Source: Pseudomonadaceae bacterium
GTDB lineage: Bacteria > Pseudomonadota > Gammaproteobacteria > Pseudomonadales > Pseudomonadaceae
Assembly: GCA_007692485.1 (NCBI GenBank)
Contig: REBY01000077.1
Location: forward strand, 1-34,572
Length of the DNA: 34,572 nt
Direction: 5' to 3'
Numbering within the stretch: the stretch's first letter is position 1; each line of letters begins with the position of its first letter. Below, in pieces: positions 5,449 through 22,611 of this stretch. Under the pieces are notes generated by a model, which was not told the origin of the DNA, did not search any database, and saw only the letters and a program-made list of their open reading frames with translations. A program made the translations under genes and the position numbers.

Positions 5449-5463
5449 TTCCGCTATGCGAAA
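5449..5463 (+). promoter_or_regulatory. Predicted IclR-type operator, site A
   Basis: TTCCGCTATGCGAAA, a near-palindrome with 6-bp arms (TTCCGC and GCGAAA) around a 3-bp centre. The centre of the site is 35 bp upstream of the ATG at 5491. The same 15-mer with few changes occurs at 12426-12440, 13571-13585, 13599-13613, 22566-22580 and 22597-22611, always before a gene of uptake or acyl-CoA catabolism. This arm pattern and spacing are typical of IclR-family binding sites. No good second copy is visible here, only a CGAAA half-site at 5439-5443. Confidence 0.7.
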
Positions 5464-5490
5464 CAAATAGGGTAAACGAGGAGGCAATGC

Positions 5491-7005
5491 ATGTTCAACC
5501 GGATTGGCGTAATTGGCGCTGGGGCCATGGGCCGAGGAATCGCCCAACTGTTCGCCACCAGCGGCCAGCAAGTGCAGCTCTACGACACCCGTAGCGAAGC
5601 CATTGACGAGGCGCTGGCCTTCAATCGCAAGCTGCTGGAGCGCTCAGTCGCCAAAGGCAAGCTGAGCCAGGATGAACTGGACGCCATCATGGCGCGCATG
5701 CAACCCGCCCATGACCTGAAAGACTTCAAGGACTGCGATCTGGTGATCGAGGCCATCGTCGAAATCCTCGACGTGAAGCAGAAAGTCTTCGACGAACTGG
5801 AAGGCATCGTACGCACAGACTGCGTGCTGGCCACCAACACCTCCTCCCTGTCCGTTACCCGCATTGCTGCCGGCTGCCAACACCCGGAACGGGTTGCTGG
5901 CTTCCACTTTTTCAACCCGGTACCACTGATGAAAATCGTTGAAGTGGTGCGCGGCGCACGGACTGACGAGCGCTATATCCAGGGCCTGGTTGAACTGGCC
6001 GACAAGGCCGGCCACTTCCCGGCGATTACCCCGGACACCCCCGGCTTCCTGGTCAATCATGCCGGCCGCGCCTTCGGTACCGAAGCCCTGCGCATGCTGA
6101 GTGAAGGGGTTGCCACGCCGCAACAGATCGACCGTATTCTGCGCGATGGCCCAGGCTTTCGCATGGGCCCGTTCGAGCTGTTCGACCTCACCGGCCTAGA
6201 TGTTTCCCATGCGGTCATGGAGTCCGTCTACGAGCAGTTCTACCAGGACCCCCGCTACACGCCTTCTTTTATCGCGGCGCAGCGGGTCGCCGCGGGCCTG
6301 CTGGGTCGCAAGACCGGTCAGGGTTTTTACCGTTATGAGGACGGGCAAAAAGTCGAAGCCCCGGAGCCGGTGGTCGACACCCTGCTGATCACCCGTCCGT
6401 TCTGGCTCGATAGCCATGATGCTGCCGTACGCAGCGATGTGCATGCCGTGCTGGCCGCCGCTGGCGCGACCCTGGAAACCGGTAACCTACCCAGTGACGA
6501 GGCTATCTGCCTGGTTACCCCGCGCGGTGAAGACTGCACCAGCGCACTGGTGCATCAAGGCCTGGATGCCAGCCGCACGCTGGCACTGGATACCTTTGCT
6601 ACCTGGGAAAAGCGTCGCACGCTGATGCGCAACCCCGCGACCCACCCCGAAGTCGCCGCGCAGGCCCGTCAGGCCCTGGGCGCTGACGGGGTGCCGGTAG
6701 AACTGATTAATGATTCGCCTGGCTTTGTTATCCAGCGGCTGATCGCCAGTGTGATCAACCTCGGCTGTGAAATCGCCCAGAAAGGCATTGCCACCCCGGA
6801 AACGCTTGATCGCGCCCTGCAATTGGCGCTCGGCTACCCGAAAGGCCCGCTGGCCTTTGGTGAGCATTACGGCAAGCAGGCCGTGCTGGAGGTTCTCAAC
6901 AATATGCAGGCGGTGTATGGCGAGCCGCGCTACCGCCCCAGCCCATGGCTGCGCCGTCGAGTACAACTCGACCTGCCACTGACCACCCCGGATTCTCAGG
7001 AGTAA
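5491..7005 (+). CDS. paaH: 3-hydroxyacyl-CoA dehydrogenase, PaaH/PaaC (3-hydroxyadipyl-CoA) type
   Basis: Predicted NAD-dependent oxidation of (S)-3-hydroxyacyl-CoA, in this subfamily typically 3-hydroxyadipyl-CoA, to the 3-oxo thioester. Residues 4-18 hold the Rossmann motif GVIGAGAMGRGIAQ, and His139 in HFFNP is the catalytic histidine. The first C-terminal dehydrogenase domain (about 185-285) ends in LGRKTGQGFYRY. A second, partly degenerate copy occupies about 310-495, giving 504 aa, the double-domain size of PaaH/PaaC rather than the ~285 aa of simple enzymes. A GAGGAGG ribosome-binding site precedes the ATG. The thiolase follows 6 bp later, so they are an operon. The rest of a phenylacetate pathway is absent, so the likely job here is the terminal oxidation of dicarboxylyl-CoA. 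The symbol reflects family, not proven substrate. Confidence 0.9.
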   Translation: MFNRIGVIGAGAMGRGIAQLFATSGQQVQLYDTRSEAIDEALAFNRKLLERSVAKGKLSQDELDAIMARMQPAHDLKDFKDCDLVIEAIVEILDVKQKVFDELEGIVRTDCVLATNTSSLSVTRIAAGCQHPERVAGFHFFNPVPLMKIVEVVRGARTDERYIQGLVELADKAGHFPAITPDTPGFLVNHAGRAFGTEALRMLSEGVATPQQIDRILRDGPGFRMGPFELFDLTGLDVSHAVMESVYEQFYQDPRYTPSFIAAQRVAAGLLGRKTGQGFYRYEDGQKVEAPEPVVDTLLITRPFWLDSHDAAVRSDVHAVLAAAGATLETGNLPSDEAICLVTPRGEDCTSALVHQGLDASRTLALDTFATWEKRRTLMRNPATHPEVAAQARQALGADGVPVELINDSPGFVIQRLIASVINLGCEIAQKGIATPETLDRALQLALGYPKGPLAFGEHYGKQAVLEVLNNMQAVYGEPRYRPSPWLRRRVQLDLPLTTPDSQE

Positions 7006-7011
7006 TCAATA

Positions 7012-8211
7012 ATGACTGCCTATATTTATGATGGTTTGCGTTCCCCCTTCGGTCGCCACGCCGGTGCACTCGCCAGTGTGCGTCCGGACGACCTGCTGGC
7101 TGACGTGATGCGCGCGCTGGTCGCCCGCAACCCCTTTGCCGGCGAAGACTATGAAGATGTCGTCATCGGCAACACCAACCAGGCGGGTGAAGATGCGCGC
7201 AACGTTGCCCGCCACGCCGGGCTGTTGGCGGGTTTGCCGCCGGAAGTTGCGGGGCTCACCGTCAACCGCTTGTGCGGTTCCGGTCTGGCAGCAATTCTGG
7301 ACGCCTCACGCGCGGTAAAGAGCGGTGAAGGCGAGCTCTTTGTCGCCGGTGGTGTCGAAAGTATGAGCCGCGCGCCCTTCGTTATTGCCAAAAGCGAAAG
7401 CCCCTATTCACGCGACTTCCGCGCCTTTGACAGCACCATCGGCGCACGCTTCCCCAACCCCAAGGTGGAAAAGGCCTTTGGCGACGACACCATGCCGCAA
7501 ACCGCGGACAACGTAGCCGCGGAACTGGGTATCGGCCGCGAAGAAGCCGATACTTACGCCGCACGCAGCCAGGCGCTGTACGAAAAAGCCCGCAGTGAGG
7601 GTTTCTTTACCGATGAAATTCTGCCGATCGAAGTCAGCCAGGGTCGCAAAAAGCCCGCCAAGCTGGTCGATCAGGACGAACACCCGCGCCCGCAGAGCAA
7701 CTTCGAAGCCCTGTCTGGCCTGCGCCCCTTGTTTGATGGCGTAGTCACCGCGGGCAATGCCTCCGGGGTGAATGACGGCGCGGCGGCGCTGATTATCGGT
7801 AGCGAAGCTATGGGGCAAAAGTATGCCATCAAGCCGCGTGCACGCATCCTCAGTGGCGCCGTATCCGGTGTGGCCCCGCGCGTGATGGGTCTGGGCCCGG
7901 TCGAGGCCTGCAAGAAAGCCCTGAGCCGCGCGGGCCTGAGCCTGGCCGACATGGATGTGATCGAGATCAACGAAGCCTTTGCCTCACAGGTACTGGGCTG
8001 CTGCAAGCAACTGGGTATTGCTTTCGATGATCCGCGCCTGAACCCCAATGGTGGCGCCATTGCTGTCGGCCATCCGCTGGGTGCCTCCGGCGCCCGCCTG
8101 ACACTGACTGCCCTGCGCCAACTGGAACGCACTGGCAAACGCTATGCACTGGTCAGCCTGTGCATTGGCCTGGGTCAGGGCGTCGCGGCAGTTATCGAAC
8201 GTCTGGATTAA
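7012..8211 (+). CDS. Thiolase, 3-oxoadipyl-CoA thiolase (PcaF/PaaJ) type
   Basis: Predicted CoA-dependent cleavage of a 3-oxoacyl-CoA, in the PcaF/PaaJ group 3-oxoadipyl-CoA to succinyl-CoA and acetyl-CoA. The 399-aa sequence has the nucleophile Cys88 (NRLCGSG), His354 (GGAIAVGHPLGASGARL) and the acid/base Cys384 (CIGLGQG). Stretches such as NQAGEDARNVAR, GGVESMSRAPFV and TAGNASGVNDGAAALI are those of 3-oxoadipyl-CoA thiolases rather than FadA or PhaA. A CAGGAG ribosome-binding site overlaps the end of the dehydrogenase gene. Paired with a PaaH-type dehydrogenase, it would complete the last round of oxidation of an even-chain dicarboxylate; longer-chain activity is possible. Confidence 0.9.
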   Translation: MTAYIYDGLRSPFGRHAGALASVRPDDLLADVMRALVARNPFAGEDYEDVVIGNTNQAGEDARNVARHAGLLAGLPPEVAGLTVNRLCGSGLAAILDASRAVKSGEGELFVAGGVESMSRAPFVIAKSESPYSRDFRAFDSTIGARFPNPKVEKAFGDDTMPQTADNVAAELGIGREEADTYAARSQALYEKARSEGFFTDEILPIEVSQGRKKPAKLVDQDEHPRPQSNFEALSGLRPLFDGVVTAGNASGVNDGAAALIIGSEAMGQKYAIKPRARILSGAVSGVAPRVMGLGPVEACKKALSRAGLSLADMDVIEINEAFASQVLGCCKQLGIAFDDPRLNPNGGAIAVGHPLGASGARLTLTALRQLERTGKRYALVSLCIGLGQGVAAVIERLD

Positions 8212-8220
8212 TAACCCTAC

Positions 8221-8258
8221 AGCGGCAAGCGGCAGGTTTTACCCTGTCGCTTGCCGCT
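8221..8258 (+). terminator. Hairpin after the thiolase gene
   Basis: The arms AGCGGCAAGCG (8221-8231) and CGCTTGCCGCT (8248-8258) match perfectly and continue inward as GCAGG/CCTGT with one G-T pair. It begins 10 bp after the stop codon. No T-run follows, so it may be an attenuated or Rho-assisted terminator or an mRNA 3'-end stabiliser. Confidence 0.5.
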
Positions 8259-8324
8259 AGAGGCTGCCGTTCGGGCTTTCTGTTAAGGTAGGCGGCTGTA
8301 TCCAGCACAGAGGCTATTCAGCGT

Positions 8325-8621: not shown

Positions 8622-8642
8622 CACGATGACTACCCACAGCGG

Positions 8643-8672: not shown

Positions 8673-8716
8673 AAAGACGTTTTCCAATCGCGCTATCCAT
8701 CTGCAAGGAGACGATT

Positions 8717-9199
8717 ATGGGTTTTGCCTTTTCCAATGAATTGAGCCTTAACAGCAGCAACTTCAACCCCTCCAGCCCAATCCCCAAGCGGCATACCGGT
8801 GAAGGTGTTGATGTATCACCGCAGTTAAGCTGGGCCAACGCCCCGGCCGAGACCAAAAGCTACGCCATCATCTGTCACGACCCCGATGCACCGCTGATTT
8901 CACCGCGCGGCACCTATGGTTTCGTGCACTGGACGCTCTACAACATTCCCGGTTCGGTGAATGCGCTTAGTGAAGGCACCCAGGATTTTACCCGTGGCAA
9001 GAATGACTTCGGCAACAACAGCTACAACGGCCCGATGCCGCCGGAAGGCCACGGCATGCATCAATACTATTTCTGGGTAATCGCGCTCGATGAAGACCTG
9101 CAACTGCCACCAGGCCTGACCCTGTGGGAATTGCTGGCCAAGATCGAGCCGCACGCGCTGGCGATGAACCGTTTGATCGGTACTTACAAGCGCGGCTGA
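8717..9199 (+). CDS. YbhB/YbcL-family (PEBP/Raf kinase inhibitor-like) protein
   Basis: Member of the bacterial phosphatidylethanolamine-binding-protein family; the cellular role of these small single-domain proteins is unclear. The 160-aa sequence has the ligand-pocket motif DPDAPL near residues 55-60 (CHDPDAPLISPRG), the segment GFVHWTLYNIPG at about 68-79, and the later NSYNGPMPPEGHGMHQYYFWVIALD, which forms the rest of the pocket (PP.GHG.H.Y.F). There is no signal peptide, so it is cytoplasmic like YbhB. A strong AAGGAGA ribosome-binding site sits before the ATG. A separate thioesterase gene follows 68 bp downstream; the two may be co-transcribed but show no clear functional link. Confidence 0.9.
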   Translation: MGFAFSNELSLNSSNFNPSSPIPKRHTGEGVDVSPQLSWANAPAETKSYAIICHDPDAPLISPRGTYGFVHWTLYNIPGSVNALSEGTQDFTRGKNDFGNNSYNGPMPPEGHGMHQYYFWVIALDEDLQLPPGLTLWELLAKIEPHALAMNRLIGTYKRG

Positions 9200-9267
9200 T
9201 TGCACCCCTGTGGGTGGCACGGCGCCTGTCGTGCCACCTTGCCTGTCAACGCAGTTCGGAATCCCCG

Positions 9268-10105: not shown

Positions 10106-10777
10106 TCAAGGCTGCAACCAGGGCAGCACGGCTGCGCGCAAGGGCGCATTCAGCAAAGCGCGAGTTTCCCGGTAAGCCGTGCGTGGCAGCGCCGCGAGGC
10201 GCTGCAAATGACTGCGTGCTTCCAGCAGCACATGCTCGCTGGCATGCAGCTCGTCGAGAAAGCCGGCTTGCACCGACTGATCGGGATTCAGTCCTTGTGC
10301 CTGCAGCGCGCAACGGGACAGCCACTGGGGTGCAATCCGGTCGCGGGCAATCGCCATGGCGGCTTCGGGCATGGTCATGCCGATAGCCACTTCGTTGAGT
10401 GCGACCTGCCAGTCACCGGTCGTGCCCACACGGTAGTCGGCCAGCAAAAGCATAAAGGCGGCCTTGGCCATGGCATGGCCGGTACTGGCGATCACCAGTG
10501 GGGCCGGATAGTCCAACATAGCCAGGGTCAGGCGGTCACCCGCGGCACGCATGGCGTCACATTCCGGGCCGCCGGCAGCAATCAGCTTGCGGTCATAGCC
10601 GGCACTGAAGCACCCCGGGCGCCCGCTGATCAGCAACGCGGCATCGGCTGCGGCAGCCTCAGCCATGGCCGCCAGCAAGGCTTCCAACATGGCCTCGGAC
10701 AAGGCGTTGACCTTGCCGTCATCCAGAATTATTTCGGCCAGGCCGTCATGCAGGCTGAACTGCAGGCGCTGGCTCAT
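10106..10777 (-). CDS. Short crotonase-family protein with an incomplete catalytic pair
   Basis: Crotonase-superfamily acyl-CoA enzyme, 223 aa, somewhat shorter than the usual ~260. The CoA/oxyanion region is recognisable (SGRPGCFSAGYDRK, residues 51-64), as is LADYRVGTTGDWQVALNEVAIGMTMP at 112-137. Glu129 lies where the second catalytic glutamate of enoyl-CoA hydratase is found. The position 20 residues earlier, Glu144 in rat hydratase, is Met109 here, so a normal two-glutamate hydration is unlikely; an isomerase, hydrolase or accessory role is possible. Its start codon overlaps the acyl-CoA ligase stop by 4 bp (ATGA), so it is translationally coupled and belongs to the same operon. In position it parallels PimE, but the missing residue argues against equal function. 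Confidence 0.82.
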   Translation of the reverse strand: MSQRLQFSLHDGLAEIILDDGKVNALSEAMLEALLAAMAEAAAADAALLISGRPGCFSAGYDRKLIAAGGPECDAMRAAGDRLTLAMLDYPAPLVIASTGHAMAKAAFMLLLADYRVGTTGDWQVALNEVAIGMTMPEAAMAIARDRIAPQWLSRCALQAQGLNPDQSVQAGFLDELHASEHVLLEARSHLQRLAALPRTAYRETRALLNAPLRAAVLPWLQP

Positions 10778-12402
10778 GCCGCACCCGCTTGCGCGCGTGC
10801 TTCATCGCGCAGCACCCGACGCAGTAGTTTGCCGACCGTGGACTTTGGCAGATCCTCGCGAATTTCCACCTGCCGGGGGATCTTGTAGCCCGTCAGGTGC
10901 TCGCGGCAATGGGCAATGATACCGGCGGCATCCAGCGCAGCATCGTGGAGGCTGACATAGAGCTTGATGGCTTCCCCGGTGCGTTCATCAGGAATACCGA
11001 CGGCGACGCACTCGCGGACACCAGGATGGCGCATCACTGCATCCTCGATATCGTTCGGGTAGACGTTGAAACCGGAGACCAGAATCATGTCCTTCTTGCG
11101 ATCGACCAGTTTGAGGAAGCCTTCCTCGTCAATCACCCCGACATCACCGGTTTTCAGCCAACCGTCAGCACTGAAGGTCTTGGCAGTCTCATCGTCACGC
11201 TGCCAGTAACCCTGCATCACCTGCGGGCCCTTGATCAGCAATTCACCCGGCTCGCCGCGCGGGGTCGGATGCCCATCGTCATCCACGGTTTGCAGCCAGG
11301 TGTCGATCACGGCCTTACCGATATAGCCTTCGCGGTAGGGGGTGTTGGCCGTCGAGGCGACAACCACCGGTGAGGTTTCGGTCAACCCATAACCCTCGCG
11401 AATCACACTGCCGGTGCGAGCCTGCCAGCGCTTGGCAATTTCGGTATTCAGAGGCGCGCCACCCGAATTCACCCACTTCAAGCGGCTGAAATCGATGTTA
11501 TCGAATTCCGGATGCGCCATCAGCGAGACAAACAAGGAGTTGATCCCGGTCAGCAGGGTAAAAGGATGGCGCTTGAGGTCGCCGATCATGCTGTCCAGAT
11601 CACGCGGATTGCTGATCAATATGCTGTGGAAGCCGGTAAATACCGAGGCGATGCAGTTCGCGGTAAAAGCGAAGATATGATAGAGCGGCAGCGGCGAGAC
11701 ACGCACTTCATTGCCATATTCCACTTCGCCCGGCTTGAGGATGCTGACCGCCTGCAACACATTGCAGAGGATATTACTGTGGGTCAGCATGGCGCCCTTG
11801 GAAACCCCGGTCGTGCCGCCTGTGTATTGCAACAGGGCCAAGTCATCCGGGGTTCGCTCGGGGCTGACGGCAGGCAGCTCGGCGCCTGCCTGCAGGGCGT
11901 GCATAAAGCGGGTTTCGTCGGGTGCTGTGGCCGCCAGCTGCGGGTTTTGCAGGTCGTCCATGCTGGTCACGATCAGGTGCGTGATCGCAGTATCCGCCTG
12001 CACGCCGCGAACCAACGGCACCAGTTTATCCAGCACCAGCACAGCCTTGGCGCCGGAATCACTGAACTGATGGCGCGCTTCGCTGGCGGTGTACTGTGGG
12101 TTGGTATTGACGATCACCAAGCCGGCCTTGAGCGCAGCAAAGATTCCGATGGTATATTGCAGCAGGTTGGGCAGCAGGATCGCCATGCGATCACCGGGTT
12201 GTAACTTCAGTTGGTGTCGCAGGTAACGCGCCAACTGGTCTGCACGATCATCCAGATCAATAAAACTCAGGGTATCCGTACCACAAGAGAACGCCGGCTT
12301 GTTGCCATAATCCTGCCGAGCCTTGGCGAGAATGTCGTAAATGCTGCGGTGCCCGAGCTCAGCCAATTGCGAGCTGACCTGATATTGACCGGGTGACGTC
12401 AT
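10774..12402 (-). CDS. Acyl-CoA ligase (AMP-forming), FadD/PimA-like
   Basis: Predicted ATP-dependent activation of a free fatty or dicarboxylic acid to its CoA thioester. At 542 aa it has full length. The P-loop-like motif YTGGTTGVSKG is at residues 193-203, followed by the GYGLTETSP adenylate motif and GWLKTGDVGVIDEEGFLKLV. The hinge DRKKDMILVSGFNVYP and the catalytic lysine motif near the C-terminus (DLPKSTVGKLLRR) are also present. The ribosome-binding site AAGAGG precedes the ATG. It is the first gene of a two-gene operon with the crotonase, and is divergent from the IclR regulator; a predicted operator lies 24-38 bp upstream of its start. By context it would activate the acid brought in by the TRAP transporter. 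FadD-type use of monocarboxylic fatty acids cannot be excluded. Confidence 0.9.
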   Translation of the reverse strand: MTSPGQYQVSSQLAELGHRSIYDILAKARQDYGNKPAFSCGTDTLSFIDLDDRADQLARYLRHQLKLQPGDRMAILLPNLLQYTIGIFAALKAGLVIVNTNPQYTASEARHQFSDSGAKAVLVLDKLVPLVRGVQADTAITHLIVTSMDDLQNPQLAATAPDETRFMHALQAGAELPAVSPERTPDDLALLQYTGGTTGVSKGAMLTHSNILCNVLQAVSILKPGEVEYGNEVRVSPLPLYHIFAFTANCIASVFTGFHSILISNPRDLDSMIGDLKRHPFTLLTGINSLFVSLMAHPEFDNIDFSRLKWVNSGGAPLNTEIAKRWQARTGSVIREGYGLTETSPVVVASTANTPYREGYIGKAVIDTWLQTVDDDGHPTPRGEPGELLIKGPQVMQGYWQRDDETAKTFSADGWLKTGDVGVIDEEGFLKLVDRKKDMILVSGFNVYPNDIEDAVMRHPGVRECVAVGIPDERTGEAIKLYVSLHDAALDAAGIIAHCREHLTGYKIPRQVEIREDLPKSTVGKLLRRVLRDEARAQAGAA

Positions 12403-12425: not shown

Positions 12426-12440
12426 TTTTGCAGAGCGGAA
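12426..12440 (-). promoter_or_regulatory. Predicted IclR-type operator, site D
   Basis: On the minus strand it reads TTCCGCTCTGCAAAA, 13 of 15 bases as in site A. It lies in the gap between the acyl-CoA ligase (minus) and the IclR gene (plus), closer to the ligase. A TATTTT hexamer just upstream on the minus strand (12447-12442) could be the ligase -10. The same TATTTT-then-operator order occurs in front of the fused hydratase/dehydrogenase. Confidence 0.65.
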
Positions 12441-12593: not shown

Positions 12594-13391
12594 ATGAACG
12601 ACGACCTGGAAACCAGCCCAGCTACGACCGCAGCGCCCAAGGACCGGAAATTTGTCGAGGCGCTGTCGCGCGGTCTCGATGTGTTGCGCGCCTTCAGCCA
12701 GGGCTCGGTGGTCATGGGCAATCAGGATATCGCCCGCATCACGGGTCTGCCCAAGCCCACTGTCTCACGCATGACCTACACGCTGACCAAGCTCGGCTAT
12801 CTCAGCTACTCGCCACAGCTGGAAAAGTACCAGCTGGATTCCGGCGTGCTGGCGCTGGGTTATGCCTATGTGTCCAATCTGCGTGTACGCCAGCTGGCCA
12901 AGCCCTATATGGATGAGTTTGCGCGTTCAACCAATACCTCGGTCGGACTGACCTGCCGCGACCGCCTGTCGATGATCTATGTCGAAAACTGCCGCCCCGC
13001 TGAGACCACCTCACTGCGTATGGACGTCGGCGTGCGCCTGCCCTTGGCCACCACAGCCGCTGGCCGCGCCTACCTGGCGGCGATGAAGGATGAAGAGCGC
13101 GCCCACGTGCTGGCAGCGATCGAAGCGCGTAACCCCGAGCAGTGGCCCGAATGGCGCGCTCAGCTGGACGATTGCTTTGACGACTTCCGCCAACATGGCT
13201 TCTGCCTGTCTTTGGGTAACTGGGACCGCAATGTGAATGCTGCTGGCGTGCCTTTGTACCTGCAGGACGGCACCATCATGGCTCTGACCTGCGGCGCCCC
13301 CTCTTATCTGGTCTCCGAAGACAAGGTAAAAAACCAGCTCGCGCACCAGCTCGCCATGCTCGCCCGCGATATCGAACGCCTCGGGGTTTAG
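12594..13391 (+). CDS. IclR-family transcriptional regulator
   Basis: Predicted local regulator of the acyl-CoA and transporter genes. The 265-aa protein has an N-terminal winged helix-turn-helix (about residues 20-80: VEALSRGLDVLRAF, then DIARITGLPKPTVSRMTYTL as the recognition unit). The C-terminal IclR effector domain (about 95-262) includes TSVGLTCRDRLSMIYVE, RLPLATTAAGRAYLAAM and the C-terminal GAPSYLVSED region that in relatives lines the ligand pocket. It is divergent from the acyl-CoA ligase, with one predicted operator between them; five further copies precede three other units in the window. The azelate-responsive regulator AzeR of Pseudomonas nitroreducens is also an IclR protein, so a dicarboxylate ligand is a reasonable guess. 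Whether it represses or activates is unknown; operator positions near predicted start sites favour repression. Confidence 0.93.
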   Translation: MNDDLETSPATTAAPKDRKFVEALSRGLDVLRAFSQGSVVMGNQDIARITGLPKPTVSRMTYTLTKLGYLSYSPQLEKYQLDSGVLALGYAYVSNLRVRQLAKPYMDEFARSTNTSVGLTCRDRLSMIYVENCRPAETTSLRMDVGVRLPLATTAAGRAYLAAMKDEERAHVLAAIEARNPEQWPEWRAQLDDCFDDFRQHGFCLSLGNWDRNVNAAGVPLYLQDGTIMALTCGAPSYLVSEDKVKNQLAHQLAMLARDIERLGV

Positions 13392-13401: not shown

Positions 13402-13462
13402 GATCAATGGGGTCAGAGTCAATTGAAAAACAACGTTTCAATTGACTCTGACCCCATTGATC
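13402..13462. repeat. 61-bp perfect palindrome (27-bp arms, 7-nt loop)
   Basis: The left arm 13402-13428 (begins GATCAATGGGGTCAGAGTC) and right arm 13436-13462 are exact reverse complements, with loop AACAACG. A further partial copy, CCCCGTTGATC, follows at 13468-13478. It starts 11 bp after the IclR stop, so it would also act as a strong hairpin at the 3' end of that mRNA. It has no T-run. The GGGGTCAGAGTCAATT core looks like a dispersed palindromic repeat of the REP kind rather than a gene-specific terminator; this is inference. Confidence 0.8.
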
Positions 13463-13545: not shown

Positions 13546-13574
13546 TCGACAAGCCGCTTTATTTTTTGTATTTT
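13546..13574 (+). promoter_or_regulatory. Predicted promoter of the hydratase/dehydrogenase operon
   Basis: TCGACA (13546-13551), a 17-bp spacer, then TATTTT (13569-13574). The -10 overlaps operator B1 and transcription would start near 13581, between B1 and B2. Assigned from spacing and consensus. Confidence 0.4.
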
Positions 13575-13585
13575 GCCTAGCGGAA
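13571..13585 (-). promoter_or_regulatory. Predicted IclR-type operator, site B1
   Basis: Reads TTCCGCTAGGCAAAA on the minus strand, 13 of 15 bases as in site A. It overlaps the predicted -10 of the downstream operon and is 28 bp, centre to centre, from B2. Confidence 0.6.
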
Positions 13586-13598: not shown

Positions 13599-13613
13599 TT
13601 TCGCATAGTGGAA
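13599..13613 (-). promoter_or_regulatory. Predicted IclR-type operator, site B2
   Basis: Reads TTCCACTATGCGAAA on the minus strand, 14 of 15 bases as in site A. It lies 31 bp before the ATG at 13645 and downstream of the predicted transcription start, in tandem with B1. Confidence 0.7.
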
Positions 13614-13644: not shown

Positions 13645-15738
13645 ATGTCGGACGTGGTCACACTGGAACGCCAGGGCCCCATTGCAGTCATTCGGGTCAA
13701 CAATCCCCCGGTCAATGCGCTGGGTATTGCCGTGCGCGAAGGCTTGCAGAACAGCTTCAAAGCAGCCGAGGCCGATGCCGAGGTCAAGGCGATTGTTCTG
13801 GTCTGTGAAGGTAATACCTTTATTGCCGGTGCCGACATCAAGGAATTCGGCAAGCCGCCGAAGAGCCCGGGCCTGCCCGAGGTGGTCAACGACATCGAAG
13901 CCGGCAACAAGCCAAGCATTGCCGTGATCCATGGCACCGCCCTGGGTGGCGGTCTGGAAGTGGCGCTGAGCTGCCATTACCGGGTTGCACGCAAAGACGC
14001 CAAGGTCGGCCTGCCGGAAGTCAAGCTCGGCCTGCTGCCGGGCGCCGGTGGTACTCAGCGCCTGCCCCGCGTGGTTGGTGTTGGCAAGGCCCTCGATATG
14101 ATTGTCAGCGGCGCGCCGATCAGCGCCGTGGAAGCCAACGAGCTGGGTGTGGTCGACGAATTGTTTGAAGGCGACCTGCTGGCGGCCGGTAAGGCGTTTG
14201 CAGAGCAGCTGATTGCTGACGGCAGAGGCGCACGTCGCACTGGCGAGCGTACCGACAAGCTGGAAGGTGTCGACAATGCTGCTCTGGTTGCGGCCAAGCG
14301 CGCCGAGATCGAGAAAAAAATGCCCGGCCTGTTTTCACCACAGCGCTGCATTTCGGCTGTGGAAGCCTCGTTTACTCTGCCGCTGGCCGATGGCCTCAAG
14401 CGTGAGCGTGAGCTGTTCGGCGAATGCCTGGTTTCACCGCAGCGCGCGGCGCTGGTACACGCGTTCTTTACCGAGCGCCTGGCCTCCAAGGTGGATGACC
14501 TGCCAAAAGACACCCCCGTGCGTGAGATCAAGTCCGCCGGCGTGATCGGCGGCGGCACCATGGGTGTTGGTATTGCCATGTGCTTTGCCAATGCCGGTAT
14601 TCCAGTAAAGATTCTGGAAATCAGCAACGAAGCACGCGACAAGGCGATCGAACGCGCCCGTGACACTTACGGCATGAGCGTCAAGCGCGGCAGCCTGACC
14701 GAAGCGGCGCTGGAAAAGCGCATGGCACTGGTCAGTGGTATTACCGACTATGCCGATCTGTCTGATGTCGACCTGGTCGTTGAAGCCGTATTTGAAGAGA
14801 TGGGCGTCAAGCAGAAGGTGTTTGAAGCACTGGATGCCAACTGCAAGCCCGGCGCTATTCTCTCGTCCAACACCAGCTCGCTGGACCTGAACGAGATTGC
14901 CAACTTCACCAAGCGCCCGGAAGACGTCGTTGGCCTGCATTTCTTCAGCCCGGCCAACGTCATGCGCCTGCTGGAAGTGGTGCGCGGCGCCAAGACCAGT
15001 AATGAAGTGCTGGCCACCGCCATGGCGATTGGCAAGAAGCTGAAGAAAGTCGCGGTGCCGGTTGGTGTTTGCGACGGCTTTGTCGGCAACCGTATGGTGT
15101 TCCAGTACGGCCGCGAGTCCGAATTCCTGCTGGAAGAAGGCGCTACCCCGGCTCAGGTCGATGGCGTACTGAAAAAGTTTGGCATGGCCATGGGGCCCTT
15201 CGCCATGCGTGATCTGTCCGGCCTGGATATCGGCCTGGCCATCCGCAACCGTCAACGCGAAACCCTGAGCCCGGAATTCAAGCTGCCGACCATTCTCGGC
15301 AAGATGGCAGACGCCGGCATGCTCGGTCAAAAGACCGGCAAAGGCTTCTATATCTACGAAAAAGGTTCGCGCACACCGCTGGAAAACCCTGAGCTGCCAG
15401 CCATTCTGGAAGCGGCCTCCAAGGAGCAGGGAATTCAGCGCCAGCAACTCTCGGATGAGTACATTCTTGAGCGTTGCATGTATGCATTGATCAACGAGGG
15501 CGCCAAGATCCTCGAGGAAGGCATTGCCCAGCGGGCAAGTGACATCGACGTAATCTACATCAATGGTTACGGCTTCCCTTCGCATCAGGGTGGCCCGATG
15601 TTCTATGCTGACAGCATTGGCTTGGACCGTGTCTATGCCCGCATCTGCGAATTCCATGAGCAGCATGGTGCCTGGTGGAAGCCCGCACCGCTGCTGGAAA
15701 AGCTGGCCAAGGAAGGGCGCAAGTTCGCTGATCTGTGA
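13645..15738 (+). CDS. Fused enoyl-CoA hydratase / 3-hydroxyacyl-CoA dehydrogenase (FadB/PimF-like)
   Basis: Bifunctional beta-oxidation enzyme that hydrates trans-2-enoyl-CoA and oxidises the 3-hydroxyacyl-CoA with NAD. The N-terminal crotonase domain (about 1-190) keeps the oxyanion motif FIAGADIKEF and both catalytic glutamates, Glu105 (GGGLEVALSC) and Glu125 (GLPEVKLGLLPGAGG). The NAD domain begins with GVIGGGTMG (residues 299-307) and has the catalytic His432 in HFFSP. Two C-terminal dehydrogenase domains follow, to residue 697. Size and layout match PimF of Rhodopseudomonas palustris and FadB alike. A GGAGGT ribosome-binding site precedes the ATG. It heads a unit with the two acyl-CoA dehydrogenases (63-bp gap). 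Two operators sit at its promoter. No FadA-type thiolase follows it, unlike canonical fadBA operons, which supports a dedicated rather than general fatty-acid role. Confidence 0.93.
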   Translation: MSDVVTLERQGPIAVIRVNNPPVNALGIAVREGLQNSFKAAEADAEVKAIVLVCEGNTFIAGADIKEFGKPPKSPGLPEVVNDIEAGNKPSIAVIHGTALGGGLEVALSCHYRVARKDAKVGLPEVKLGLLPGAGGTQRLPRVVGVGKALDMIVSGAPISAVEANELGVVDELFEGDLLAAGKAFAEQLIADGRGARRTGERTDKLEGVDNAALVAAKRAEIEKKMPGLFSPQRCISAVEASFTLPLADGLKRERELFGECLVSPQRAALVHAFFTERLASKVDDLPKDTPVREIKSAGVIGGGTMGVGIAMCFANAGIPVKILEISNEARDKAIERARDTYGMSVKRGSLTEAALEKRMALVSGITDYADLSDVDLVVEAVFEEMGVKQKVFEALDANCKPGAILSSNTSSLDLNEIANFTKRPEDVVGLHFFSPANVMRLLEVVRGAKTSNEVLATAMAIGKKLKKVAVPVGVCDGFVGNRMVFQYGRESEFLLEEGATPAQVDGVLKKFGMAMGPFAMRDLSGLDIGLAIRNRQRETLSPEFKLPTILGKMADAGMLGQKTGKGFYIYEKGSRTPLENPELPAILEAASKEQGIQRQQLSDEYILERCMYALINEGAKILEEGIAQRASDIDVIYINGYGFPSHQGGPMFYADSIGLDRVYARICEFHEQHGAWWKPAPLLEKLAKEGRKFADL

Positions 15739-15801
15739 TGACTCGGGGTGGCTCGCCGCAAGGTGAACCGCCCGCTACCTGTATTTAAACGAGGAAAACC
15801 C

Positions 15802-16998
15802 ATGGAAATCCATTTCACCCAAGAACAAATCGCCTTCCGCGATGAAGTGCGTGAATTTCTCAAGCAGGAACTGCCTGCTGATATCGCAACCAAGGTCAAG
15901 CTGGGCAAAAATATGTCCAAGGAAGACCATGAGCGCTGGCAGAAAATCATCTCGAAAAAAGGCTGGTATGCACCCGGCTGGCCGGTCGAGCTCGGCGGCA
16001 CTGACTGGGGCCCGATCGAAAAGCATATTTTTGACGAAGAGTCAGCGGCTTATGGTGCCCCGCGCCTGGTACCCTTCGGCGTCAACATGGTTGCTCCGGT
16101 AATCATCAAGTTTGGTACCGAAGAGCAAAAGCAGAAGTACCTGCCACGTATTCTTGATGGCACCGATTGGTGGTGTCAGGGTTATTCCGAGCCGGGCGCT
16201 GGTTCTGACCTTGCTTCGCTGAAAACCCGCGCCGTACGTGATGGTGACCACTACATCGTCAACGGCCAGAAGACCTGGACTACATTGGGTCAGCACGCCA
16301 ACTGGATTTTCTGTCTGGTCCGCACCGATCCGGAAGCCCAACAGCAGCGTGGGATTTCCTTCCTGCTGATCGACCTGGACACCCCCGGCATCACCATGCG
16401 CCCGATCCACACGCTGGACGGCGAGCATGAAGTCAACGAAGTCTTCTTCGACGACGTTAAAGTACCGGTCGAAAACCTGGTCGGCGAAGAAAACAAGGGC
16501 TGGACCTGTGCCAAGTACCTGCTGACCCACGAGCGTACCGGCCTGGCCGGCATTGGTGCCTCCAAGGCGGCGCTGAGCAGCCTCAAGCGGATTGCCAGCA
16601 AGCAACTGAAAAACGGTCAGCCGCTGATTGAAGATGTAATGTTCCGCAGCCAGATCGCTGAAATCGAGATGTCGTTGATGGCTGCCGAAATGAGCACCCT
16701 TCGCATTGTTGCCTCCGCATCCGAAGGTGGTGTGCCCGGTGCTGAAAGCTCGATCCTCAAGGTTCAGGGTACTGAAATCCGTCAGACCATCACTCATCTG
16801 ATGCGCAAGGCGCTGGGGCCATACGCCCTGCCCTTCCTGCCGGAAGAAATGGAATATGACTATGATGGCGATGTGTTGCTGGCCGATTACAGCCCGTCAC
16901 TGGCTGGCTCGTACTTCAACATGCGCAAACTGTCGATCTTCGGCGGATCCAATGAGATCCAGAAGAATATCGTTTCTAAAATGATTCTTGAACTGTAA
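15802..16998 (+). CDS. pimC: Acyl-CoA dehydrogenase, PimC-like (large subunit)
   Basis: FAD-dependent alpha,beta-dehydrogenation of an acyl-CoA, with electrons passed to ETF. The start at 15802 (MEIHFTQEQ, 398 aa) follows a GAGG site; an in-frame ATG at 15748 would add 18 unrelated residues. Family motifs are present in order: N-terminal helical domain, GYSEPGAGSDLASLKT in the FAD/substrate strand region (about 130-145), KTWTTLGQHANWIFCLVRTD, and the C-terminal FGGSNEIQKNIVSKMIL. The sequence has the character of the protein annotated as pimeloyl-CoA dehydrogenase large subunit, and it is followed by its usual partner 11 bp later, so a heteromeric PimCD enzyme is likely. The pairing is strong; the exact chain length and diacid specificity are inferred. 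Confidence 0.88.
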   Translation: MEIHFTQEQIAFRDEVREFLKQELPADIATKVKLGKNMSKEDHERWQKIISKKGWYAPGWPVELGGTDWGPIEKHIFDEESAAYGAPRLVPFGVNMVAPVIIKFGTEEQKQKYLPRILDGTDWWCQGYSEPGAGSDLASLKTRAVRDGDHYIVNGQKTWTTLGQHANWIFCLVRTDPEAQQQRGISFLLIDLDTPGITMRPIHTLDGEHEVNEVFFDDVKVPVENLVGEENKGWTCAKYLLTHERTGLAGIGASKAALSSLKRIASKQLKNGQPLIEDVMFRSQIAEIEMSLMAAEMSTLRIVASASEGGVPGAESSILKVQGTEIRQTITHLMRKALGPYALPFLPEEMEYDYDGDVLLADYSPSLAGSYFNMRKLSIFGGSNEIQKNIVSKMILEL

Positions 16999-17009: not shown

Positions 17010-18143
17010 GTGGACTTCAAATTGACTGAAGAGCAACAGATGTTGAAGGAAACTGCGGAGCGACTGGTACGCGACGTATACACCTTTGACAAGCGCCTTA
17101 AATTCAGCGACAGCGAGGCCGGTTACAGCACCGAGTTCTGGCAGCAAATGGGCGAACTGGGCCTAACCGCCATTCCCTTCCCGGAAGAGCTGGGTGGTTT
17201 TGGTGGCAAGGGCGTGGAAACCATGCTGATCATGGAACAGCTGGGTGCCGGCATCTGCCTGGAGCCCTACATGGAATCCGTTATTCTGGCCGGTGGCCTG
17301 ATCACCCAACTGGGCAGCGATGCACAGAAAGACGAGCTGCTGGGTCAGATCGCCACGGGCGAACTGCAAGCTGCCGTTGCCTTGGACGAGCTGCACAGCC
17401 ATTACAACCTGCACGAAGTTCAAACCACTGCCAAGCAGTCTGGCGACAAGTGGACCCTGAACGGCCGTAAAGGTGTGGTGATTGGCGGTCATACCGCGGG
17501 CAAGATTCTGGTTTCTGCGCGAACCGCCGGTGACGTGCGCGACCAGCAAGGCATCAGCCTGTTCCTGCTCGACCCAACCACTGCTGGTGTGACCCGTCGC
17601 GCTTACTCCACAGTAGACGGTCGCAAAGGTTGCGAGCTGTTCCTTGACAATGCTGAAGCCGAGCTGCTGGGCAGCGCTGGCAATGCCTACGATGCCATCG
17701 CCTATCAGGCCGGCCGTGGTGTCGCCGCGCTGTGTGCCGAAGCCGTTGGTGCCATGCGCGTAGCCTGTGACATGACCCTGGATTACCTGAAGACTCGCAA
17801 GCAGTTTGGCGTGCCGATCGGTAAATTCCAGGTGCTGCAACACCGTATGGTCGATATGATCAGCGAGCTGGAGCGTGCCACGTCGATGACCATCCTGGCT
17901 GCGTGCCTGGCTGATGACGAAGACAGCGCTGAACGCACCGCCAAGCTGTCGGCGGCCAAGTTCATCGTTAACAAGGCTGCGCAGTATGTGGCTGAAGAAA
18001 GCATTCAGCTGCACGGTGGTATTGCCATGACCTGGGAATACAACGGCGCGCACTATGCCAAGCGTCTGGTAACCATCAGCCACCAGCTGGGTGATGATGA
18101 CCATCATCTGCAAGCTTATGCAAAAGGCTTGAGCCTGGCCTGA
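17010..18143 (+). CDS. pimD: Acyl-CoA dehydrogenase, PimD-like (small subunit)
   Basis: Partner of the preceding acyl-CoA dehydrogenase, 377 aa. It starts at GTG 17010, with a perfect AAGGAGGT ribosome-binding site 5-6 bp upstream that spans the preceding stop codon. The N-terminal helical domain carries FPEELGGFGGKGVETMLIME. The middle region ALDELHSHYNLHEVQTTAKQ is divergent from canonical GSD motifs, as in other PimD-type subunits. The C-terminal helical bundle has RKQFGVPIGKFQVLQHRMVD and LHGGIAMTWEYNGAHYAKR. Tight spacing argues for stoichiometric co-expression. A terminator begins 15 bp after the stop, so the operon ends here and etfBA is separate. As with PimC, the chain-length preference is inferred only. 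Confidence 0.87.
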   Translation: MDFKLTEEQQMLKETAERLVRDVYTFDKRLKFSDSEAGYSTEFWQQMGELGLTAIPFPEELGGFGGKGVETMLIMEQLGAGICLEPYMESVILAGGLITQLGSDAQKDELLGQIATGELQAAVALDELHSHYNLHEVQTTAKQSGDKWTLNGRKGVVIGGHTAGKILVSARTAGDVRDQQGISLFLLDPTTAGVTRRAYSTVDGRKGCELFLDNAEAELLGSAGNAYDAIAYQAGRGVAALCAEAVGAMRVACDMTLDYLKTRKQFGVPIGKFQVLQHRMVDMISELERATSMTILAACLADDEDSAERTAKLSAAKFIVNKAAQYVAEESIQLHGGIAMTWEYNGAHYAKRLVTISHQLGDDDHHLQAYAKGLSLA

Positions 18144-18249: not shown

Positions 18250-18314
18250 TATGCACCCTTTTGAATGTCATGCGCCCGCCGGGCGTCTCATAGACCTGTG
18301 GAGGACGAACGTCC

Positions 18315-19064: not shown

Positions 19065-19994
19065 ATGACAATTTTGGTTATTGCTGAACACAACAACGCC
19101 GAACTCAACGGCGCTACCCTGAACACCGTGGCTGCGGCCAAGGCCATCGGCGGTGATATCGCTGTTCTGGTCGCTGGTGAAGGTTGCTCTGCTGTCGCAG
19201 ACGCGGCTGCCAAGGTCGAAGGCGTTAGCAAGGTCCTGTTGGCTGATAACGCTGCCTACGGCCATCAGCTGCCGGAGAACATCTCCCTGCTGATCGCTGA
19301 GCTGGGCAAGGACTACAGCCACGTACTGGCCCCGGCCAGCACCAGCGGCAAAAACTATATGCCGCGCGTTGCTGCCCTGCTGGACGTTGATCAGATCTCG
19401 GAAATCATCGCCGTTGAAAGCGCTGATACCTTCAAGCGTCCGATCTATGCCGGTAACGCCATTGCCACCGTGCAGTGCACTGCTGACACCAAGGTCATTA
19501 CTGTGCGCCCGACAGGCTTTGATGCTGTTGCCGCCGAAGGTGGCAGCGCCAGCGTAGAAGCCGTCTCTGCTGCCCACGACGCTGGTATCTCCAGCTTTGT
19601 TGGTGAAGAGCTGGCCAAGTCTGACCGTCCTGAGCTGGCTTCAGCCAAGATCGTCATCTCTGGCGGCCGCGGCATGCAGAATGGCGACAACTTCGAAATG
19701 CTGTACACACTGGCTGACAAGTTGGGCGCAGGCGTTGGTGCCTCGCGTGCAGCGGTTGACGCCGGCTTCGTACCCAACGACATGCAGGTCGGCCAGACCG
19801 GTAAGATCGTTGCACCGCAGCTCTACGTTGCCGTGGGCATTTCCGGTGCTATCCAGCATCTGGCGGGCATGAAAGACTCCAAGGTGATCGTTGCGATCAA
19901 CAAGGACGAAGAAGCCCCGATCTTCCAGGTTGCCGATTACGGCCTGGTAGCTGACCTGTTCGAAGCGGTACCCGAACTGGAAGGCAAGGTGTAA
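19065..19994 (+). CDS. etfA: Electron transfer flavoprotein alpha subunit
   Basis: Large ETF subunit that binds the redox FAD. It is 309 aa, of normal length. The C-terminal FAD domain carries [55 protein letters not shown] and [20 protein letters not shown], which together contact the flavin (the VGISGA and HLAGM segments are family hallmarks). The N-terminal domain pairs with EtfB. The ATG begins on the base after the etfB stop, so the two are translationally coupled for equal output. A strong terminator follows 37 bp after the stop. Function within the window: electron sink for PimCD and any other acyl-CoA dehydrogenases of the cell. Confidence 0.96.
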
Positions 19995-20031
19995 CGGCAG
20001 CGTCAAGCCGCAAGCCTTAAGCTTCAAGAAG

Positions 20032-20058
20032 ACCCCGGCTCTCGAGTCGGGGTTTTTT
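20032..20058 (+). terminator. Rho-independent terminator of etfBA
   Basis: The arms CCCCGGCT (20033-20040) and AGTCGGGG (20045-20052), with one G-T pair and loop CTCG, are followed by TTTTTT. Confidence 0.9.
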
Positions 20059-20131
20059 ATTGCCTGAGTCACAGTAAATACACTAGCCTTTCAGCATCCC
20101 CCTCCACGGCATTGCGCGTTATCCAGGGACC

Positions 20132-20735: not shown

Positions 20736-20761
20736 ACCCAGTGTGTTCAGGATGAACCTGT

Positions 20762-22450
20762 GTGAGCTTGAAAACCCGTTTTCAATTGCTGATTGCCGCC
20801 CTGCTACTGATCGCTTCAGTCGCCACCTGGACTGTTTTCGAGCGCATTGCCGAAGGCATTGTCGAGCAATGGGGGCTGCGGGTAGCGGAAATCCAGGTAC
20901 GCTATGACAGTGCCCGGCTGCTGCAACCCCTGGAACGGGAAATCGCCCTGGCCATGCAGATGGCCGACTCTACCGTCCTGCGCCGCTGGTCACGCAACCC
21001 TGACGATGCCGACTTGCTGGCTGCGGCCACCGAGGAAATGGAGAGCTTTCGCCGTAACTTCCGCGATCAGAACTACTTTGTCGCACTGCGCGAGTCCGGC
21101 GCCTACTACCACAACAATGCCGCCGATGAGTATGCCGACGAGCCCTACCGTTACAGCCTGAACCCGGACAACCCTGATGATGCCTGGTTTTATCTGCTGG
21201 TTGAACAGGGCAAGCAGTTCCACATCAATATCAACCCGGACGTGGAACTGGATGTCACCAAACTGTGGATCGATGTGCTCATGTATGACAATGGCGAGAT
21301 TACCGGCATGGTCGGTACCGGCCTCGAACTGGAGAGCTTCCTGCAGGAGATTGTCGATATTGGCCAACCCGGTATCACGACCCTATTTCTCGATCACAGC
21401 GGCGCGATTCAGCTGCACCGTGACCCGGGTATCATCGACTACGCCAGCCTGATCAAACCCGAAGGTCAGAAAAGCACGATAGAGCTCTTGCTCAGCGGTG
21501 GCGAATCCCGGGTTCGCGACATGATGGAGCAGCTACGCACTCAACAGGCCGGCCCCGAACAGGTGCTGACGGACTTTGTCAGCATGGATGGCCAGCGCCA
21601 CCTGGCAGGCATCGCCTACCTGCCTGCCATTGACTGGTTTGAAGTCACCCTGATTGACCTCGACGAGCTGATGCCGGTCAGCCGCTTTGCCTCGGTGGCG
21701 ATAGTGTTCAGCCTGATGCTGCTGGCGGCCTTGCTGATCATGCATATTGCCCTGCGCCGCTTGCTGCTGGACCCCTTGCTGGCACTCGAACAGTCCATGC
21801 TCAAAGTGCGCGACGGCAACTTTGATGCGGCCGACGAACTGCCTGCCAGCAGCGGCGAAATTGGCCGCGTCATCAATCACTTCCGCGGTATGGCCAGCGC
21901 CATTCGTGACAATACACGTAACCTCGAGGCCAAAGTTCACGAGCGTACCCTGGCCCTGGAGCGGCTGGCCCGCCACGATGACCTGACCGGCCTGTTCAAT
22001 CGCCGCGGCATGAATGAACTGCTGCACGAGGTACAGGCCCGCTGTCAGCGTGAAAACCAGAGTTATGGCCTGATCTGGCTTGACCTGGACAACTTCAAAG
22101 ACCTCAATGACAACCATGGTCACAGCATGGGTGATCACGCTCTGAAAGCCGTTGCCGAACAGCTGCGCGCCGGCATTCGCCCGTATGATCATGCCGCGCG
22201 CTGGGGTGGGGACGAATTTCTCGTGCTGCTCACCCCCTGCGACCCATCTACCCTGGCGCGCACTGCCGAACGCCTGCGCGCCATGATCGCTGAAGCATCA
22301 GGCCAGCAAGGTCCGATGTTTACTGTCAGTGTCGGCGCCTGCCTGGCCAGCGCCGACCGCCCCCTGCATACCGTGCTGCAGGCCGCTGACGAAGCCCTGT
22401 ATCAGGCCAAACAAGCCGGGCGCAACCAATACCGCGTGACGACTGACTGA
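20762..22450 (+). CDS. Membrane diguanylate cyclase with periplasmic sensor, HAMP and GGDEF
   Basis: Predicted synthesis of cyclic di-GMP in response to a periplasmic signal. The start is GTG at 20762 (562 aa); AGGA lies 8-11 bp upstream. The order is: membrane span about 7-25; periplasmic double-Cache-like domain about 30-310, rich in aromatic and acidic residues (NPDNPDDAWFYLLVEQGKQF); second span about 313-336; HAMP about 340-385 (LLDPLLALEQSMLKVRDGNF); coiled linker; then the GGDEF domain from about 405. The active-site motif is intact, GGDEF at residues 482-486. An RxxD inhibitory site (RPYD, 473-476) lies at the canonical five-residue spacing, so product inhibition is expected. There is no EAL domain. 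It lies between the panE remnant and the transporter, but the transporter has its own promoter. Confidence 0.92.
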   Translation: MSLKTRFQLLIAALLLIASVATWTVFERIAEGIVEQWGLRVAEIQVRYDSARLLQPLEREIALAMQMADSTVLRRWSRNPDDADLLAAATEEMESFRRNFRDQNYFVALRESGAYYHNNAADEYADEPYRYSLNPDNPDDAWFYLLVEQGKQFHININPDVELDVTKLWIDVLMYDNGEITGMVGTGLELESFLQEIVDIGQPGITTLFLDHSGAIQLHRDPGIIDYASLIKPEGQKSTIELLLSGGESRVRDMMEQLRTQQAGPEQVLTDFVSMDGQRHLAGIAYLPAIDWFEVTLIDLDELMPVSRFASVAIVFSLMLLAALLIMHIALRRLLLDPLLALEQSMLKVRDGNFDAADELPASSGEIGRVINHFRGMASAIRDNTRNLEAKVHERTLALERLARHDDLTGLFNRRGMNELLHEVQARCQRENQSYGLIWLDLDNFKDLNDNHGHSMGDHALKAVAEQLRAGIRPYDHAARWGGDEFLVLLTPCDPSTLARTAERLRAMIAEASGQQGPMFTVSVGACLASADRPLHTVLQAADEALYQAKQAGRNQYRVTTD

Positions 22451-22533
22451 CGGCGAACGCTCAACCCCAACCAAGCCTGCCCGCCCCTCCCTGCAGTCCG
22501 TCTAAAAATAGACTTAACTGTGCCTACGACCTT

Positions 22534-22561
22534 TTGCATTGTGTCTCATGATGAGTAAAAT
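22534..22561 (+). promoter_or_regulatory. Predicted sigma-70 promoter of the TRAP transporter operon
   Basis: TTGCAT (22534-22539), a 16-bp spacer, then TAAAAT (22556-22561). Transcription would start near 22568, inside operator C1. Confidence 0.5.
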
Positions 22562-22565
22562 GGTA

Positions 22566-22580
22566 TTCTGACAAGCGAAA
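22566..22580 (+). promoter_or_regulatory. Predicted IclR-type operator, site C1
   Basis: TTCTGACAAGCGAAA, 11 of 15 bases as in site A, with the right arm GCGAAA intact. It overlaps the predicted transcription start and lies 31 bp, about three helical turns, upstream of the stronger site C2. Confidence 0.5.
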
Positions 22581-22596
22581 CATAACAACAGTTTAA

Positions 22597-22611
22597 TTCC
22601 GCTGTGCGAAA
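22597..22611 (+). promoter_or_regulatory. Predicted IclR-type operator, site C2
   Basis: TTCCGCTGTGCGAAA, 14 of 15 bases as in site A, 25 bp before the ATG of the TAXI binding protein. The flanks also agree with site A (ATTCCGC at left, GAAACAAA at right), which extends the match beyond the core. Confidence 0.7.

Follow-up and report, generated by a model that had tools for sequence, protein, structure and literature searches.

Conserved palindromes point to an IclR-family regulon for putative dicarboxylate uptake and β-oxidation in a Pseudomonadaceae bacterium

The regulator AzeR of Pseudomonas nitroreducens and the azeTSLR genes of Phycobacter are described cases in which an IclR-family protein answers a dicarboxylate and acts on acyl-CoA (coenzyme A) ligase, β-oxidation and TRAP transporter genes (PMC10945470, PMC7398563; these and all other papers cited by PMC number are drawn upon in excerpt). 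In Phycobacter azeR lies together with the genes of a TRAP transporter, a thioesterase and an acyl-CoA ligase and has been tied to β-oxidation genes by co-expression; the targets in P. nitroreducens are given as unknown in the excerpt of the same paper (PMC10945470), and no AzeR operator is described in these excerpts. An IclR gene is also located inside the adipate β-oxidation cluster of P. jessenii (PMC6061476), and a PcaR-type IclR repressor limits glutarate use in a Ralstonia strain (PMC12543098). Here we analyse, as far as likeness can be judged from these descriptions, a similar arrangement on a stretch of 34,572 nt from a Pseudomonadaceae bacterium (contig REBY01000077.1; hereafter the window), which is contig C198 of an assembly of 209 contigs and 2.8 Mb and represents about 1.2% of the genome. 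Six copies of a 15-bp palindrome, RTTYCGCNNNGCGRAAY, precede four predicted transcription units of the window and are very probably operators, and the assignment of these units to one regulon under an IclR-family regulator is strongly supported. The nearest named species to the IclR-family protein of the window belong to Halopseudomonas, ranked after two metagenome-assembled genomes.

The initial annotation had listed six 15-mers in intergenic DNA; all six were found where it had placed them, and all are indeed intergenic, 24-74 nt before the start codons at 5491, 12402 (minus strand), 13645 and 22636. The putative operators are:

5449..5463, plus strand: operator 1, TTCCGCTATGCGAAA, 28-42 nt before the start codon of the paaH-like gene
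12426..12440, minus strand: operator 2, TTCCGCTCTGCAAAA (read on the minus strand), before the acyl-CoA ligase gene
13571..13585, minus strand: operator 3a, TTCCGCTAGGCAAAA (minus), distal member of the pair before the pimF-like gene
13599..13613, minus strand: operator 3b, TTCCACTATGCGAAA (minus), proximal member, 28 bp from 3a
22566..22580, plus strand: operator 4a, TTCTGACAAGCGAAA, distal member of the TAXI pair, the weakest site, conserved as TTCTGAnnnGCGAAA
22597..22611, plus strand: operator 4b, TTCCGCTGTGCGAAA, 31 bp from 4a

Compared with TTCCGC-N3-GCGAAA on the better strand, the sites at 5449 and 22597 are free of mismatches, those at 12426, 13571 and 13599 (all minus) have one and that at 22566 has two. 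The site at 12426-12440, previously assigned to the region between the ligase gene and a divergent iclR gene, does precede the ligase gene and lies 154 nt before the iclR start. The statement that no comparable intergenic match stands before unrelated genes holds at one mismatch, whereas weaker intergenic matches with three mismatches exist (e.g. at 25900 and 32377). A further near match with one mismatch, TTCTGCAAAGCGAAA at 2766-2780 on the minus strand, is absent from the initial annotation and lies inside an alkyl-sulfatase frame (1066-3060). The genus consensus of the palindrome spans 17 bp and reads approximately RTTYCGC-N3-GCGRAAY.

RTTYCGCNNNGCGRAAY fits the IclR group-1 class WTTYCRYW3RYGRAAW / GTTYCRYW3RYGRAAC, with the central W3 often not A/T here. 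The arms, the 3-bp centre, the distance to the start codon and the tandem use are all like those of the motif classes WTT-11-AAW and GTT-11-AAC (Suvorova and Gelfand 2021, PMC8222616). According to the excerpt of that study, site centres in the IclR family lie at -20 to -80 and tandem sites usually have a spacing of 18-22 bp, a smaller class being set at about three helical turns; the spacings of 28 and 31 bp found here differ from the commonest one and come near the less common three-turn class. The P. putida PcaR operator WWWRKTCGATWATCGSAYRRW (PMC8222616) differs from RTTYCGCNNNGCGRAAY. PcaR, the regulator of the Pca regulon (PDB 8eju), nevertheless provides the closest NCBIfam model for the protein encoded at 12594, the PcaR/PcaU/PobR subfamily model TIGR02431, whose cut-off was not reached (138.8 vs 284.75 bits), and its operator is likewise near-palindromic and of similar length. 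The closest solved chain to the 12594 protein is 5whm, another IclR protein, and not 8eju. Pham et al. 2024 are said to have described dicarboxylate ligands of PcaR.

The genes in the neighbourhood of the sites are predicted to encode:

5491..7005, plus strand: PaaH-type 3-hydroxyacyl-CoA dehydrogenase (NF006124 over cut-off)
7012..8211, plus strand: 3-oxoadipyl-CoA thiolase (NF006001 over cut-off), presumably in one unit with the 5491 gene
10106..10777, minus strand: enoyl-CoA hydratase (ECH_1), overlapping the end of the ligase gene and presumably in one unit with it
10774..12402, minus strand: fatty-acid/dicarboxylate-type acyl-CoA ligase (AMP-binding; best models FadD-type, PimA also matched, all below cut-offs)
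12594..13391, plus strand: IclR-family regulator, the proposed repressor (Pfam HTH_IclR 23-72, IclR_C 91-261)
13645..15738, plus strand: PimF-like fused enoyl-CoA hydratase/3-hydroxyacyl-CoA dehydrogenase (ECH_1 and 3HCDH; FadJ/FadB models best, below cut-offs)
15748..16998, plus strand: acyl-CoA dehydrogenase, pimeloyl-CoA dehydrogenase large subunit-like (PimC; TIGR03204 best, below cut-off)
17010..18143, plus strand: acyl-CoA dehydrogenase, pimeloyl-CoA dehydrogenase small subunit-like (PimD; TIGR03203 best, below cut-off)
18315-19994: EtfBA, a gene pair near the sites
22636..23796, plus strand: TAXI-family TRAP solute-binding protein (TIGR02122 over cut-off, 166.4 vs 84.35 bits)
23843..25795, plus strand: fused TRAP permease (TIGR02123 over cut-off, 562.4 vs 320.65 bits)

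This gene set resembles a dicarboxylate (pimeloyl-CoA) β-oxidation pathway plus transport, and the bacterium looks capable of taking up and degrading dicarboxylic acids. The comparison system is the pimFABCDE operon of Rhodopseudomonas palustris for pimeloyl-CoA β-oxidation. The PimC and PimD models are the best ones for the acyl-CoA dehydrogenase pair of the window and PimA matches the ligase; since all of them missed their equivalog cut-offs (492.9 vs 623.85, 351.3 vs 652.7 and 325.9 vs 705.6 bits for PimC, PimD and PimA, respectively), "dicarboxylate β-oxidation" is a family-level reading that assigns no substrate, and the name PimF for the product of 13645..15738 is given by analogy. The pim-like genes of the window are placed in separate units with separate putative operators, in contrast to the single operon of R. 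palustris; the gaps from the pimF-like to the PimC-like gene and from there to the PimD-like gene amount to 9 and 11 nt. The transporter is of the TAXI TRAP type, as both TIGR02122 and TIGR02123 cut-offs were passed, and its genes are located about 9 kb from iclR, whereas in Phycobacter three TRAP genes adjoin azeR.

The independent test of the sites is their conservation in other genomes, the outcome of which is decisive. A 15-column matrix built from the six window sites only was used to scan 220 nt upstream of orthologues at 78 of 80 loci, the best match per gene and locus being used. The loci L010 and L011, with regulators 98% and 96% identical to that of the window, were dropped from the upstream counts, as were matches below 50% identity, matches starting after residue 60 and upstream stretches shorter than 150 nt. 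A site was counted at a score of at least 12 within 220 nt, a score reached by 2.1% of 4000 random regions generated with a first-order Markov model of the same upstream stretches.

In Halopseudomonas a site was detected before paaH at 20/20 loci, before the ligase gene at 25/25, before pimF at 24/24 and before the gene of the TAXI solute-binding protein at 3/3, and in Stutzerimonas/Pseudomonas at 3/3 (paaH), 15/15 (ligase) and 21/21 loci (pimF). The control genes of Halopseudomonas were nearly empty, with a total of 2/157 (mutM 0/17, thl 0/22, tesB 0/19, ech 0/25, pimC 0/23, pimD 2/21, etfB 0/13, etfA 0/8, dgc 0/1, taxiM 0/3, mcp 0/2, cyc 0/2, U32 0/1), and those of Stutzerimonas/Pseudomonas were without a site (pimC 0/22, pimD 0/27, ech 0/1). 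The conservation before the same genes in relatives, which the initial annotation had proposed as a check, was thus borne out. The enoyl-CoA hydratase gene (ech) has an operator of its own in 0/26 loci scanned. EtfBA was considered as a direct target and rejected on the counts for etfB and etfA.

The spacing of the paired sites is conserved as well. Before pimF the two sites are exactly 28 bp apart, with the second one scoring at least 10, in 23/24 Halopseudomonas loci, while the site sequences vary; the TAXI pair keeps a distance of 30-31 bp in 11/11 orthologues (78-100% identity, intact 5' end, window included). The site is absent in 3/3 TAXI homologues of about 43% identity. Three of the nine scanned homologues of at most 28% identity score at least 12 (L266, L269, L272), with the match starting at residue 110, so that their "upstream" stretch is extrapolated and probably coding. 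The upstream counts for TAXI and for an AraC-family gene treated below leave out L246 and L259 (cut-off 5' end) and L247 (a 44% AraC homologue). The majority base accounts for 0.94-0.96 in the arm columns vs 0.72-0.79 in the flanks in Halopseudomonas and for 0.99 vs 0.70-0.89 in Stutzerimonas/Pseudomonas. Upstream of iclR, 15/25 Halopseudomonas and 28/34 Stutzerimonas/Pseudomonas loci have a site within 220 nt, in most cases the operator of the ligase gene, which shares this divergent region; only some genomes have one close to iclR (-62 in L020, -61 in L028).

The 12594 protein exceeds the Pfam cut-offs for HTH_IclR (58.2 bits, cut-off 22) and IclR_C (90.1 bits, cut-off 24). In a sample of 194 genomes of the order, an IclR protein of at least 69% identity was detected in nine genomes besides that of the window, and all nine have pimF (54-68%). 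The pimF loci scanned were 29 of the 58 non-window rows: upstream of pimF the nine IclR-bearing genomes reach scores of 10.7-17.2, with 4/9 at 12 or above, and 0/20 pimF-like loci from genomes that lack such a protein exceed 10.2. In 4/5 of the IclR-bearing genomes below the threshold the top match is located at -44, the exception being G055 (-202). Of the eight IclR orthologues aligned, seven share the helix segment LPKPTVSRMT; the three paralogues and L071 have LPKATVSRMT instead. The orthologue-wise conservation, the near-empty controls, the motif class, the linkage and the co-occurrence of IclR protein and sites all speak for the single IclR-family regulon that had been claimed from the window, and we infer that the 12594 product itself may bind all six sites.

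We consider it quite probable that the IclR protein encoded at 12594-13391 represses dicarboxylate uptake and β-oxidation through the palindrome in an AzeR-like manner and is released by a diacid or its CoA ester. The palindrome would be the operator of this protein, and without inducer an IclR dimer on each site, close to the transcription start, would repress four units, namely paaH-thiolase, ligase-hydratase, pimF-pimC-pimD and the TAXI-TRAP transporter. Where the sites are paired, as before pimF and before the TAXI gene with a distance of about three helical turns, two dimers would sit side by side and may cooperate. The inducer suggested by the gene content, a medium-chain dicarboxylic acid or the corresponding CoA ester, would bind the IclR_C domain and release the sites, whereupon uptake, CoA activation and β-oxidation would be switched on together.

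The best promoter-like elements are TCGACA-17-TATTTT before pimF and TTTGCA-17-TAAAAT before the TAXI gene. At both, the distal operator covers the stretch from -10 to +12 and the proximal one lies at +18 to +32 (pimF) or +29 to +43 (TAXI), a position over or after the best -10 element that leans towards repression by blocking. Repression rather than activation, the operon limits and the identity of the inducer are all proposals.

Several points weigh against this reading. The promoter-like elements are weak overall: under the rule applied none was found for paaH, and the ligase gene has two candidates of equal rank, one of which puts the operator at -25 to -11 (the other at +9 to +23); IclR proteins can moreover also activate. 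The species share ancestry, so that the upstream counts are not independent, and the higher conservation of the arms is partly expected because the sites were picked by score. Marinobacter, with IclR proteins 72-75% identical to that of the window, is looser, with a site at pimF 2/16, iclR 0/18 and pimD 0/10 vs thl 8/8 and pimC 4/9. The margin of the order test is thin (10.7 vs 10.2), with 5/9 genomes below 12 and 7.3% of random regions reaching 10, and its negatives are also the more distant pimF homologues. The site at 22566 scores only 9.8 once left out of the matrix; it is argued to be real despite this score since its TTCTGA arm is kept in all 11 TAXI orthologues, window included.

An alternative would be that the same operators are bound by the same IclR protein acting as an activator in the style of PcaR/PcaU/PobR, or in a dual role, in which case transcription would rise with the dicarboxylate signal. 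The curated model nearest to the 12594 protein is that of a subfamily whose members include activators, and the upstream one of the two operator positions at the ligase promoter would suit this mode. In the excerpt of PMC12543098 the IclR family is said to hold activators, repressors or both. AzeR, on the other hand, is described as a repressor (PMC7398563), and the position of the operators, 24-74 nt before the start codons and over or after the best -10 candidates at pimF and TAXI, argues against activation, which we therefore regard as unlikely.

It appears still less probable that the motif serves some other regulator whose gene lies elsewhere, with the iclR gene as a mere neighbour. The link between protein and motif consists of co-location and co-occurrence, and the genome of the window holds three HTH_IclR matches over the Pfam cut-off, the two besides 12594 reaching 47.7 and 33.2 bits; in a whole-protein search one of these two matches the 12594 protein (23% over residues 20-208). 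Against this stand the IclR-like class of the motif, the site-like sequence before pimF that tracks the IclR orthologue across the order, if by a thin margin, and the presence of the site at the locus of a 66-67% identical IclR paralogue in two genomes.

Counts of the motif were taken in the window and in its genome. At up to three mismatches the window holds 49 matches vs 41.3 (standard deviation 6.7) in shuffled sequences, 14 of 100 shuffles reaching 49, and this loose count was discarded as uninformative. At up to one mismatch RTTYCGCNNNGCGRAAY occurs at 14 distinct places in the genome vs 15 for the reversed control pattern; the number of such sites was likewise set aside as evidence, since only their location is informative when the count equals the control. 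Five of the 14 places are window sites and intergenic (22566, with two mismatches, is excluded), and the remaining 9/9 lie inside stop-free frames of at least 271 aa. The genome scan suggested by the initial annotation, which is partly circular because the motif was derived from the window sites, thus supports the intergenic placement but not a raised frequency. That the six matches are a functionless chance or compositional pattern, as these counts by themselves might suggest, seems already contradicted by the position, sequence and 28/31-bp spacing conserved across many species and by the 2/157 control regions matched.

The exact palindrome was found 69 times in 37 Halopseudomonas genomes vs 15 times for the reversed pattern, and 42 of the 69 matches, in 35/37 genomes, lie within 15 kb of iclR. 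The other 27 comprise 4 before paaH and 4 before TAXI genes (other contigs), 8 before an AraC-family gene (5 placed by Pfam scan, 3 by alignment), a single one before a DctP TRAP gene, 2 from the IclR paralogue locus (66-67%) and 8 inside frames of at least 267 aa, which look like chance. Among AraC orthologues (53-100% identity, intact 5' end, 300 nt scanned) 23/28 score at least 12 and 25/28 at least 10, most of the sites falling between -108 and -118; two of those below 12 score 10.4. The orthologues without a site (L227, L228, L231) belong to the genomes G016, G021 and G024, which hold a second IclR protein of 66-68% identity. The genome of the window yielded no AraC orthologue, its best homologue being 45% identical. 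The AraC gene is divergent from a DUF1302 gene in L199 (711-4151), the sole locus scanned for that neighbour, and in L278 (8727-15445) DUF1329 and DUF1302 genes follow further along from it. An MFS carrier gene near iclR (Pfam run on L038, 12493-13851) has a site 96-137 nt upstream in 20/20 Stutzerimonas/Pseudomonas orthologues. The regulon proposed initially accordingly stands for the four window units and is incomplete for relatives, in which other transport genes and the AraC regulator carry the site.

Taken together, these occurrences would fit an IclR regulon for medium-chain dicarboxylates with fixed enzymes and, behind one operator, transporters swapped among unrelated families, to which the AraC site would add a cascade to a surface system; we give this joint reading an even chance. 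The transporters concerned would be TAXI-TRAP (window and at least 10 relatives), DctP-TRAP (one genome), MFS (Stutzerimonas) and a DcaP-like porin (paralogue locus), and the AraC part relies on the site before AraC in 23/37 genomes of the genus, divergent from the DUF1302 outer-membrane gene where scanned.

At the paralogue locus of L206 the palindrome lies at the 5' end of the DcaP-like porin frame (3001-4488), about 6 kb from the second IclR gene (67% identical to that of the window), and the locus has a ligase of about 31% identity; in L198 the palindrome of the paralogue locus lies in a 247-aa frame. In Marinobacter L078 a one-mismatch site (9680), outside the counts, is found some 45 nt upstream of a 2-hydroxyacid dehydrogenase gene (8706-9635) adjoining iclR.

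Within the window a chemoreceptor gene (25991-28117) directly follows the TAXI-TRAP genes, with the same placement in L200, L208 and L211, and its product may sense the acid carried by the transporter. Between the TRAP permease and chemoreceptor genes, a near-perfect palindrome, TTACGCAGTGCGTAG at 25900-25914, three mismatches from the operator, is perhaps the site of another regulator. The diguanylate cyclase encoded at 20762-22450 resembles the SiaA model in its N-terminal and the SiaD model in its C-terminal part, both below cut-offs, and may represent a SiaA-like sensor fused to GGDEF. Just past the iclR stop codon, a perfect 27-nt inverted repeat with a 7-nt loop (13402-13462) is built from TGGGGTCAGAGTCAATTG, which has 22 genome copies (up to one mismatch), several of them as inverted pairs; the repeat may derive from a mobile or REP-like (repetitive extragenic palindromic) element and may separate iclR from the pimF promoter.

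Since the motif falls into described IclR classes and control of the AzeR type has been described before, the regulon of the window represents a further case of a known circuit type, in which the operator set is new, together with the swapping of transporters and the extension to AraC. A literature search yielded no paper on this regulon in Halopseudomonas, though the supplement of PMC8222616 or Bez et al. 2020 may already describe it. Most likely, the palindromes let one IclR-family repressor switch a dicarboxylate pathway on and off, a solid but ordinary kind of regulatory circuit, for the testing of which a single protein and a few promoter fragments would suffice. For Halopseudomonas and Stutzerimonas the analysis puts forward putative operators with their target genes and a candidate for the sensor of dicarboxylate use; it also marks the TAXI gene as a candidate for dicarboxylate transport and suggests a regulatory link for the AraC-DUF1302 genes.

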